The notes under the pieces are model-generated. The model was not told the DNA's origin. It saw only the letters and a program-made list of their open reading frames with translations, and did not search any database. The translations under genes were made by a program, and so were the position numbers. A DNA stretch of 21,142 nt, taken from positions 1 through 21,142 of IMG/VR virus record IMGVR_UViG_3300043427_003007. One strand, 5' to 3'. Below, in pieces: positions 5,877 to 13,247 of this stretch; the stretch's first letter is position 1; the number at the start of each line of letters is the position of its first letter. Origin of the DNA: a virus.

Positions 5877-5901
5877 AAAAAAAGAGGGTCTTGCGACCCC
5901 C
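5877..5901 (-). terminator. Intrinsic terminator after the 177-aa gene
   Basis: Minus strand: stem GGGGGTC/GACCCTC (7 pairs including one G-U) around a GCAA tetraloop, followed by seven T (5883-5877). It lies 25 nt after the stop of the 177-aa gene. Confidence 0.85.
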
Positions 5902-5925
5902 TGATGGACAGTTTAGAAAGTGGTT

Positions 5926-9655: not shown

Positions 9656-10135
9656 TCAATATCTTAATTTGATATGTACGTTTTCCTTAATTGAATTGTA
9701 GTCTGAGTAATTTGTTCCGTCAACTCCATTATCATCAACAAACACTTCATCAAATCCTGTTTTTTCAAGAATTTTATTTTTAATTTCTAGTTGTCTTTTC
9801 TCTTTCCCTATTCTACGAATAAAAGCATAGTGAATAATTTGAGTAAAATAAGCAAAGGGGTTCTGTGATTTCTCTGGATTAAAATTATGAAGATATTGAA
9901 TACAATTTTCAATGCCATCGGAAATCATATCATCTTTAAACATATAATTTACAAAATTAGGTTTAAAGGATAAATGAGTAGCAATTTTAAGAATACATTC
10001 TCCTATGTAGTTTGGAATAGGGGGTTTAGGAAGACCATTTGCTTCTGCATCTTCAATATTTTTTCTGTATTCTATAAGTGCTGCCAAAAATTCTTTATTA
10101 TTTACATAATGAATTGACCTTTTTCTTTTTGTCAT
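9656..10135 (-). CDS. gp55: Late-transcription sigma factor gp55
   Basis: 159 aa from the ATG at 10135 (MTKRKRSIHYVNNKEFLAAL), preceded by an AGAAG about 4 nt upstream. An in-frame ATG at 10153 would add six residues. It shares YVNNKE(F/L)L..I, MI(S/A)DGIE..I..LHNF and NP.AY.TQ...AF..RI.KE with T4 gp55 (185 aa). It is a reduced sigma factor: it binds host RNA polymerase core, recognises TATAAATA-like late promoters without a -35 element and is activated by the gp45 clamp. Nine such boxes occur in this window. It is a little shorter than T4 gp55 at the C-terminus, which in T4 binds the clamp; whether the clamp-binding tail is conserved cannot be told. Confidence 0.95.
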   Translation of the reverse strand: MTKRKRSIHYVNNKEFLAALIEYRKNIEDAEANGLPKPPIPNYIGECILKIATHLSFKPNFVNYMFKDDMISDGIENCIQYLHNFNPEKSQNPFAYFTQIIHYAFIRRIGKEKRQLEIKNKILEKTGFDEVFVDDNGVDGTNYSDYNSIKENVHIKLRY

Positions 10136-10179
10136 TACTTCTGTTGAAATCATAAGATCTACTAATTAAATATGTAGAC

Positions 10180-10208
10180 ATTATAACATTTTATCTAATA
10201 ATAAACAA
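10180..10208 (-). promoter_or_regulatory. Promoter upstream of gp55
   Basis: Minus strand TTGTTT (10208-10203), a 17-bp spacer and TATAAT (10185-10180), about 45 nt before the gp55 ATG. A perfect -10 and a moderate -35. It would give early expression of gp55, gp47 and gp46. Confidence 0.65.
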
Positions 10209-10211
10209 GTA

Positions 10212-10241
10212 TTGACATACGTATCTTATTATGAGTATAAT
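10212..10241 (+). promoter_or_regulatory. Consensus plus-strand promoter, antisense to the late/recombination genes
   Basis: TTGACA (10212-10217), an 18-bp spacer and TATAAT (10236-10241): both hexamers are perfect. Its -35 is only 3 bp from the -35 of the gp55 promoter on the other strand. A palindrome ATACGTAT (10217-10224) abuts the -35. No plus-strand gene follows; RNA from about 10248 would be antisense to the 129-aa gene and then uvsW. The 120-bp gap at 10154-10273 holds only these promoters. Confidence 0.6.
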
Positions 10242-10273
10242 AGGTTTGTTCCGTTTGAAGATAAGTTAGATCT

Positions 10274-10663
10274 CTATAAGTCTTTATAAATCTTTTCTAG
10301 TAGTTTTTTAGCATCATTTACGTTTGAGATATATCCCATTTTTCTAGATATATCTTGATTGTTATTCTTAATGTTGCTAATCTTTTTTACATATGACTGA
10401 TGCATCATAATCATTTCAATATCAGTATTTTCAGTTATTGTAATTACATCTTCCATTTTAATTAAAAACATATCTTCAGTGGTAGTTTTCATCCAAGGTT
10501 CTACTTTATATCCCACTGCTCCATTACGATTTTTATAATTTTTAATTATAATAGGATTAGTAACTAATAATATAATAGAATTATCTTCTTCACATGGAAG
10601 AACCTTTGTAAATATCTCCTCACTTGTTTTTAATTTTATTGATGCATAAAAATCTTCTTCCAT
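10274..10663 (-). CDS. Conserved cyanophage hypothetical protein, 129 aa, possibly Sm-like
   Basis: I recognise this as a protein regularly found next to uvsW and gp55 in T4-like cyanophages; it has no known function. The first 80 residues look like a small beta barrel: FYASIKLKTSEEIFTKVLP, IILLVTNPIIIKNY, GYKVEPWM, FLIKMEDVITITE. This strand order, with an acidic residue after the first turn and a hydrophobic V-I-T-I end, recalls the LSm/Hfq fold; that is a structural guess. About residues 85-129 are basic and helical (YVKKISNIKNNNQDISRK). It starts 1 nt after the uvsW stop. The plus-strand promoter at 10212 points straight into the 3' end of this gene. Confidence 0.75.
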   Translation of the reverse strand: MEEDFYASIKLKTSEEIFTKVLPCEEDNSIILLVTNPIIIKNYKNRNGAVGYKVEPWMKTTTEDMFLIKMEDVITITENTDIEMIMMHQSYVKKISNIKNNNQDISRKMGYISNVNDAKKLLEKIYKDL

Positions 10664-10664
10664 A

Positions 10665-12137
10665 TTATTTTAGAGTAATAGGTATAATTTCATAATTAAA
10701 GTCTTCTTCGTTATATATTTTTATTCTTTCTATAAAGTGATTTAAAGTATAATTTTTCTTTGAATTATATGTAGTATCATCTGCAATATCGTAAAGAGTT
10801 GCCTTGTCCTTGTTAGATCCTTTTCTTAAAACTCTTCCTATTGATTGTAAATTACGAATTCTAGATTTACTTGGTGAAGCAAATATCACATTATGTAAAT
10901 TTTTAATGGAAATACCTGTACTAAAAACACCATAGGAAGCAACAATAATTGCATTATTTTCTCTTTCAGTAATTTCTCTTACTTGCTCCCTCTCCTGAAC
11001 GTCTACTCCTCCATGGACAAAAAATACTTTACGTTTATCCTCAACATCAATATTTATTAATTCATACAAAGGTAATCCATGAGTTTCAACTCTTGAAAAA
11101 AGTATTAATGTATTTCCCTTTAAATCAAGTGCTAAATTTTTAATAAATTTATTTCTTTTATCATTATTGATAATGAACTGTATTTCATCTTCATACTTAT
11201 TAAATCTTTGAGGATTATGTTTTAAGACTAAACAATGAATATCTAATTTTGATGCCCTTCCTTTCTCTATAAGTTCTTTGGTTCCAACTGCTTTATAAGG
11301 AGGACCAAACAATCCAGAAATAACCCATTCATGGGTTTGAGAATCTTTACTTCCATTTGAAAGAGTTCCTGTAAATCCAAATCTATATTTTGCATTATGA
11401 GATTTTTTCATAATGTCAATTAATGATTTTGATTTACACCCATGACATTCATCTACAACTACACAGTCATAATCTTCAAAGAAAGATCTTTCTAATTTAT
11501 GAATACTTTGCCAGGTAGAAAGAGTTACTAACTTATCAGTTTTTTTTTCTTGCCCGGAATAAATCATATGACAATATTGATCTACATCCCATCCATATTC
11601 GGACCAATCTTTTATCATTTGATGAATAAGTGAAGTAGTTGGAAATACTACTAAACAATTTAATCCCTTACTTACATAGTATCTAATCACTGCATAAATC
11701 ATGAAAGATTTACCGGATGAAGTTGCAGATATCACAGTTTTTCTATTATATCTTAAGCATTCATATACCGTATCAATCTGATAATCATAAGGAGAAAATT
11801 TTCCAATATAATTCATATATCCCTTTACTCCTTCTAGGGATATTTCTTCATTTATTTCAAAAGGTAATCCATAGTACTTATTGTCAACAAATTCATAAGT
11901 ATATCCGTAATTTTTTATTTTTGCTATTACCCTATCTAAAAGACCTGCATACACTTCCCCTGTAGTAGTGCTTAAAAGTCTTATTTCTCCATTCCATCCT
12001 TTACCTCTATATTGAGGCATAAACTTCGCAGATTCAACAGAAAAGGTAAAGTGAGGAGCAAGTTCATGTAAAATATGAGGTTCACATTCTAACTTAATGT
12101 AAACCTCATTCTTTTTTGATATAATAATGTCACTCAT
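10665..12137 (-). CDS. uvsW: DNA/RNA helicase UvsW
   Basis: 490 aa (T4 503), a superfamily 2 helicase. The N-terminal substrate domain is at about 1-105. The helicase core follows, with a Q-motif region FSPYDYQ (114-120), Walker A ATSSGKS (138-144), motif Ia VVFPTTSL (163-170), motif II DECH (229-232), motif III FTGT (255-258) and motif VI QSIGRVLRKGS near 430. UvsW unwinds branched recombination intermediates and R-loops and turns off origin-dependent replication in favour of recombination-dependent replication; in T4 it is a late gene. Here too an AATAAATA late box stands 22 nt upstream. All motifs are intact. It stands right after uvsY. Confidence 0.97.
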   Translation of the reverse strand: MSDIIISKKNEVYIKLECEPHILHELAPHFTFSVESAKFMPQYRGKGWNGEIRLLSTTTGEVYAGLLDRVIAKIKNYGYTYEFVDNKYYGLPFEINEEISLEGVKGYMNYIGKFSPYDYQIDTVYECLRYNRKTVISATSSGKSFMIYAVIRYYVSKGLNCLVVFPTTSLIHQMIKDWSEYGWDVDQYCHMIYSGQEKKTDKLVTLSTWQSIHKLERSFFEDYDCVVVDECHGCKSKSLIDIMKKSHNAKYRFGFTGTLSNGSKDSQTHEWVISGLFGPPYKAVGTKELIEKGRASKLDIHCLVLKHNPQRFNKYEDEIQFIINNDKRNKFIKNLALDLKGNTLILFSRVETHGLPLYELINIDVEDKRKVFFVHGGVDVQEREQVREITERENNAIIVASYGVFSTGISIKNLHNVIFASPSKSRIRNLQSIGRVLRKGSNKDKATLYDIADDTTYNSKKNYTLNHFIERIKIYNEEDFNYEIIPITLK

Positions 12138-12170: not shown

Positions 12171-12605
12171 TTATCCCAACCCACTTGCAAACCTTTGATA
12201 GTCTATGGCATTTTTTATTTGGTAAGTTCTACTATGAATCATTTTTAAAATATCCTGAATATAACTTAACATTACATCATAATATTCAACCTTTAAACTA
12301 GCCTGAGAAAGACTTTCATCTGCATCCATATATTTTTGTAAAGTATCTTTGTCTCTTATTTTTTTAGGGAATGGGTTTTCAATATAAACATCTGGATCTG
12401 CTTTTCCAGTGTAATATTCATATTTTTGATGCCTTATATTTCTTTTTTGTTGTTCTGCTTTCTTTTTAAGAAGAAGAATATTGTTGTAAATATCAAAATA
12501 TTTTGCATGTAAAGATGCAGTATTCAAAGATTCCATGTGAAGATTATCTGGGTCAATCTTTGAATCTTCTTCCCACATTTTTTGTATTGTTTCAAGATCT
12601 ATCAT
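12171..12605 (-). CDS. uvsY: Recombination mediator UvsY
   Basis: 144 aa from the ATG at 12605 (MIDLETIQKMWEEDSKIDPD); a TTG 15 nt upstream is in frame but less likely. It aligns with T4 UvsY (137 aa): DLxxLxxxWxxDxxID, the block LHAKYFDIYNNILLLKK (T4 MLYSKWLNKHSSIKKEM), YYTGKADPDVY (T4 YYSGRGDGDEF), LQKYMDADESL (T4 VLSADKDVL), and the end IHSRTYQIKNAIDYQRFASG (T4 IKSRGFAIKHIQDMRAFEAG, with an RxFxIK core). UvsY forms hexamers that load the UvsX recombinase on gp32-covered single-stranded DNA. Genes for UvsX and gp32 are not in the window. It lies between gp3 and uvsW; no good Shine-Dalgarno is visible, so coupling to gp3 is likely. Confidence 0.88.
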   Translation of the reverse strand: MIDLETIQKMWEEDSKIDPDNLHMESLNTASLHAKYFDIYNNILLLKKKAEQQKRNIRHQKYEYYTGKADPDVYIENPFPKKIRDKDTLQKYMDADESLSQASLKVEYYDVMLSYIQDILKMIHSRTYQIKNAIDYQRFASGLG

Positions 12606-12620
12606 TATTTTAATTAGCAA

Positions 12621-13210: not shown

Positions 13211-13235
13211 TAAAAAAAAAGACCCTTTCGGGTCT
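13211..13235 (-). terminator. Intrinsic terminator after gp23
   Basis: Minus strand AGACCC GAAA GGGTCT followed by nine T (shared with the stem end). A 6-bp stem with a GNRA tetraloop, 25 nt after the gp23 stop. Confidence 0.9.
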
Positions 13236-13247
13236 CTTGTGATACTT

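Follow-up and report, generated by a model that had tools for sequence, protein, structure and literature searches.

A predicted promoter opposed to the late sigma factor gene gp55 is widely conserved among T4-like cyanophages

The gap upstream of gp55

Why should a promoter of perfect consensus stand directly upstream of gp55, the gene for the late-transcription sigma factor, and point away from it? The question was raised by a 21-kb record of 21,142 nucleotides, a fragment of a T4-like cyanophage (Kyanoviridae), which is called the window below. The gene order on the minus strand is gp23, tail tube/gp3, uvsY, uvsW, a 129-aa Sm-like gene (phrog_471), gp55, gp47, a DUF3110 gene (phrog_470) and gp46, and all genes around gp55 lie on that strand. 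gp55 (9656-10153; 165 aa; phrog_234, E 1.3e-69) has about 80% identity to its counterparts in isolate phages. Upstream of it lie the Sm-like gene (10274-10663; phrog_471, E 8e-35), the helicase gene uvsW (10665-12137; UvsW_N, E 5e-11; phrog_16) and uvsY (12171-12620), all on the minus strand. The product of the 129-aa gene is commonly annotated as 'methylamine utilization', yet its match is to the Sm-like domain PF16243 (E 4e-8); a search of the PDB gave no sequence match at E 0.01. An Sm-fold protein whose gene adjoins a conserved antisense promoter might bind RNA. Strong terminator-like hairpins were observed at two other places on the minus strand. One is located directly 3' of gp23 (13217-13238). 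The other (5883-5902), followed by a T run, comes shortly after the TTG (5929) that is listed as the start of a 748-aa peptidase ORF; the true start of this ORF is therefore probably further downstream.

The gap of 120 bp between the Sm-like gene and gp55 houses two promoters, and both were found as the original prediction had described them. On the plus strand, the antisense promoter consists of a perfect -35 box, TTGACA (10212-10217), and a perfect -10 box, TATAAT (10236-10241), separated by an 18-bp spacer. On the minus strand, the gp55 promoter consists of TTGTTT (10203-10208, read from 10208 to 10203) and TATAAT (10180-10185, read from 10185 to 10180) with a 17-bp spacer and a predicted start near 10173; it is conserved in relatives, and its -35 box is weak in the window and in the closest relatives. 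The coordinates confirm that the two -35 boxes are 3 bp apart. The start of the antisense promoter is predicted at 10248, the G of a conserved TGT 7 nt past the -10 box, from a TG conserved 6-7 nt past the -10 in 297 relatives. The predicted starts of the two promoters are thus 75 bp apart in the window. Among 70 promoter-like sites in the 20 kb of the window that were scanned, the antisense promoter (10212-10241, plus strand) was the only one to match the sigma70 consensus at 12 of 12 positions; 0.0125 such exact pairs are expected per Markov shuffle of the window. A palindrome, ATACGTAT, had also been noted beside the promoter. It is present at 10217-10224, where it overlaps the last base of the -35 box, but it is missing even from close relatives such as L003 and was rejected as a functional part.

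As had been claimed, no credible plus-strand gene was found after the antisense promoter. From a start near 10248, an RNA made from it would run first into the Sm-like gene, at its 3' end, and then on into uvsW. Cyanobacteria are not known to have Rho, and no plus-strand terminator was found nearby in the window; the antisense RNA could therefore be long. A short antisense sRNA with its own terminator was rejected, as terminators within 400 nt showed no clear excess over shuffles. Constraint on the body of the RNA was likewise rejected for the Sm-like gene, where synonymous sites are not unusually conserved, and no known RNA family was matched in the window at the Rfam gathering threshold. Such transcription could plausibly occur early in infection, since host sigma70 promoters, read by the unmodified host polymerase, are believed to drive the early genes of cyanomyoviruses (PMC2984593).

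Conservation of the antisense promoter and of its start site

The original prediction had named a lack of conservation of the TTGACA/TATAAT pair in close relatives as one result that would refute it, and it withstood this check. gp55 loci were drawn from IMG/VR and from isolates. In a first set, an exact antisense TTGACA was followed by a -10-like hexamer at 16-18 bp in all 83 of 83 upstream regions. In a larger set of 336 regions, non-redundant in that 8-mer overlap was below 0.35 and still related in sequence, about 297 carried the antisense promoter with the consensus TTGACA, 16-18 bp, TANNNT and a TG start dinucleotide. The -35 box was exactly TTGACA in 286 of these 297, and the spacer was 17 bp in 272. 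In the S-N03 clade the box is often TTAACA. The -10 box varies in its middle (TACAAT, TAGAAT, TATAAT, TAGACT, TACACT), as true -10 boxes do, and the start G follows it by 6-7 nt. A2 and T6 of the -10 box and the TGT were requirements of the search and the remaining features were not; the TGT, although imposed in the selection of the 297, is nearly invariant in other sets too. All sequence features of a host-type sigma70 promoter (TTGACA, a spacer of 16-18 bp, a -10 box and a start purine 6-7 nt further on) are present. The antisense element is very probably a functional promoter. The spacer of the relatives also contains a short conserved A run at about -22 to -19, counted from the start; 159 of 174 have A at position -20, an unusual feature among sigma70 promoters.

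The element has been lost wholly or in part in two clades. It is missing, along with most of the gap, from P-TIM40 and its relatives and from a part of the S-N03 clade. gp55 retains promoter-like sequence in these phages, and the antisense element is therefore not essential. Some scored absences were not real: in S-CRM01 the element is there but the gap is longer, L175 carries an insertion, and pf16 and L543 are only distantly related. In L175 (IMG/VR contig 3300006802_002150) the gp55 match stops short of its start, and the sequence ahead of it resembles an insert of the LAGLIDADG type (EYIAGFIYGWWLADGYK), which might be an intein or a homing endonuclease within the late sigma factor gene.

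Conservation of the antisense -35 box could have been a by-product of the gp55 promoter, since TTGTCAA read in reverse is TTGACAA. In most close relatives the gp55 -35 box is TTGTCA and has bases in common with the antisense TTGACA, and a single set of bases serves both boxes in 144 of 298 regions. In the other 154 regions the gp55 box is located elsewhere or interleaved (TTGACA...TGTCAA in Syn9 and S-RIM2; S-PM2 is another such phage); even so, 144 of them have the exact antisense TTGACA. The by-product explanation was rejected on this count, which argues that the antisense box is selected for itself. It is also the stricter conserved of the two, sense -35 boxes being more variable (TTGTCA, TTGACA, TTTACA, TTGACG, TTGCCA). 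The antisense promoter is kept in about nine of ten such viruses, generally more strictly than the gp55 promoter, and is therefore probably a real control element.

In most relatives, a palindrome is found directly after the antisense -10 box, with the presumed start (T-G-T) in its loop. It extends from about -6 to +10, the 5' arm covering -6 to -1. At least ten different stems were observed, among them AACCT/AGGTT, AACTC/GAGTT, AACTT/AAGTT, AACCG/CGGTT, AACCC/GGGTT, ATGAG/CTCAT, TGTAGT/ACTACA, GTTAT/ATAAC and, in S-CRM01, CTTAG/CTAAG. The sequence differs between clades and the base pairing is kept. The mean Watson-Crick stem was 3.22 bp, compared to 2.66 bp (maximum 2.84 of 300) when 3' halves were swapped within clades. 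By this comparison, from which shared ancestry is not fully removed, the stems covary. The window's own copy pairs weakly. Its start-site element, AGGTTTGTTCCGTTTG (10242-10257, plus strand), is the counterpart of the relatives' palindrome (CC-TTTGT-NNGGGTTGA), and the palindrome version in the window (AGGTTTGTTCCG) has a single-strand fold of 0 kcal/mol; the closest relatives are weak here too. The predicted antisense starts of S-PM2 and Syn9 read AACTCTG/TCGGGGGTT and AACACTG/TCAGGGTT, the start being the G before the slash. With its 5' arm placed upstream of the expected start, the palindrome does not suit a simple RNA hairpin. The structure could possibly be formed by non-template DNA in the initiating complex, or the palindrome could be a co-evolving operator. 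G-T rather than A-C pairs are seen on the antisense strand. The excess over swaps was about equal for both, and the apparent strand preference of the hairpin proved to be largely base composition.

Copies of the promoter and start element also stand immediately before small genes (phrog_1653, phrog_878 and others without known function) in S-SM2 (43272), in Bellamy (56734) and in further contigs; those in the further contigs were found with a narrow pattern, so that their number is no estimate. These copies have the right direction for driving the small genes, as expected of a working promoter type. The two copies in Bellamy have different stems. Just one convincing copy was found in each of P-SSM2, P-HM2 and S-CRM01, and a regulon in all phages was rejected on that ground. 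A general early-promoter motif was rejected as well, as only two strong sites emerged when the 190-kb S-SM2 genome was scanned with a PWM. Exact TTGACA promoters that oppose gene direction are rare, with 3 against 26 along it in S-SM2 (3/29) and 5 against 25 in Bellamy (5/30). One further antisense promoter is common to S-SM2 (NC_015279.1, minus strand, near 58141) and Bellamy (MF351863.1, minus strand, near 73365). It reads TTGACA-17-TAGA(A/C)T, then a conserved GC(A/T)CGCTTAGATCACTAC, and opposes a coding-strand promoter at a distance of about 120 bp within the early gene cluster.

Possible roles of the antisense promoter

The distance between the sense and antisense starts has a median of 65 bp (5-95%, 54-83). 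The footprint of a sigma70 polymerase runs from about -55 to +20. With starts 54-83 bp apart in 90% of the phages, a polymerase bound at either promoter should keep the other from being occupied. The pair has the marks of a bidirectional promoter, namely shared core bases or room for one polymerase. Competition between the two promoters, which had been suggested as a means of tuning gp55, fits this geometry and the -35 bases common to both in about half of the regions, from which we infer the exclusivity itself.

The best explanation of the locus, given slightly less than an even chance, is that mutually exclusive binding of polymerase restrains gp55, with the antisense RNA as a second effect. 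The action proposed for the antisense promoter on gp55 is held a little more tentatively. Early in infection, the unmodified host RNA polymerase would bind in one orientation at a time, and the antisense promoter would draw off much of it, which would keep gp55 low or delay it. Polymerases leaving the antisense promoter would run against the uvsW/Sm-like transcript that may otherwise read into gp55. The palindrome could set the speed of polymerase departure, or a factor bound there could shut the antisense promoter off, and gp55 would then be freed. The antisense RNA itself might be incidental, or it might add a second level of control. For a pure decoy a conserved start site would be unneeded, which counts against that version. 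In the window and in its closest relatives both the sense -35 box and the palindrome are weak, so that the balance of the two promoters may differ between phages. In a more specific form, which we consider doubtful, the palindrome forms a hairpin in the non-template strand, with the start G in the loop, that traps the polymerase as a poised complex and so blocks the gp55 promoter until its release. If true, the poised hairpin would be a structure-coded timer of the late switch, kept by pairing and not by sequence.

The main rival of mutual exclusion is cis-antisense action on the uvsW and Sm-like message, a possible reading to which we give roughly one chance in four. The long plus-strand RNA would pair with the Sm-like, uvsW and perhaps uvsY messages, resulting in repression or in shielding from, or exposure to, host RNase E. 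The promoter does point at these genes with no plus-strand terminator after it, and pairing of perfect complements requires no extra conservation; nevertheless, synonymous-site conservation is not raised in the Sm-like gene, the first one reached, and the RNA would first meet the 3'-most part of its target, whereas translational control usually acts elsewhere. The family has known antisense RNAs, such as CfrI at psbA of S-PM2 (PMC2984593), and antisense transcription has been proposed to guard phage mRNA against RNase E (Stazic 2016, as cited in PMC10976474).

It is unlikely that the start-site palindrome is instead an operator, bound by a phage or host regulator that switches the antisense promoter and its second copies together. 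Its position at about -6 to +10 is a usual one for a repressor, and second copies with the same element do occur in S-SM2, Bellamy and other contigs; on the other hand, the stems are wholly different between clades (AACCT/AGGTT, ATGAG/CTCAT, TGTAGT/ACTACA, CTTAG/CTAAG) with only the pairing kept, they differ even between the two Bellamy copies, and the single copies of P-SSM2, P-HM2 and S-CRM01 leave no regulon there. A replication origin of the T4 ori(uvsY) kind, primed by an R-loop of the antisense transcript, is quite improbable. The site lies near uvsY and uvsW, the latter encoding the R-loop helicase, and a promoter with a structured start is a feature of T4 origins, but no consistent turn in GC skew was observed at gp55 in four complete genomes, ori(uvsY) uses a sense-direction middle promoter, and several clades are without the element. 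Finally, a functionless consensus promoter that arose by accident in an AT-rich gap is hardly credible: the 70 promoter-like sites in 20 kb are not above the number in shuffles, but an exact consensus is rare in them, and this reading is already contradicted by conservation of the site family-wide with exact spacing.

Comparison with known systems

T4-like cyanophages have no MotA, AsiA or Alt, and control of their early and middle transcription is called unclear (PMC2984593), as is the timing of gp55. The near-universal opposed promoter with its covarying start palindrome offers one defined site to mutate or footprint, in phages whose hosts, Prochlorococcus and Synechococcus, are among the most abundant photosynthetic organisms of the ocean. 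No description of an opposed promoter beside gp55 was found in the literature, of which coverage was partial, and an earlier description is possible.

Antisense transcription has been noted in the cyanophage family (PMC10976474). The closest likeness there is CfrI, an antisense RNA at psbA of cyanophage S-PM2 (PMC2984593, PMC5931967), in that antisense transcription in a T4-like cyanophage is proposed to regulate a key gene. CfrI differs in its location, at psbA together with a homing endonuclease gene, and in having been shown by experiment, whereas the gp55 site is known only from sequence. Control by overlapping early and late promoters has been proposed for S-PM2, Syn9 and RB49 (PMC2984593); host sigma70 promoters are common to that proposal and the gp55 site, and the accessible part of the paper does not mention an opposed promoter upstream of gp55. 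T4 ori(uvsY) resembles the gp55 site in having a promoter near uvsY and uvsW. It differs in its sense direction, in its dependence on MotA as a middle promoter and in having been shown to prime replication.

Bidirectional promoters are known in bacteria (PMC12825309). In the class described by Warman, Grainger and colleagues, from which the gp55 pair differs, the two promoters reportedly have -10 bases in common and initiate about 18 bp from each other. In the gp55 pair there is no such shared -10 symmetry and the starts are not close; the -35 bases are shared or adjacent, the -10 boxes face outward, and the starts are about 65 bp apart, or 75 bp in the window.
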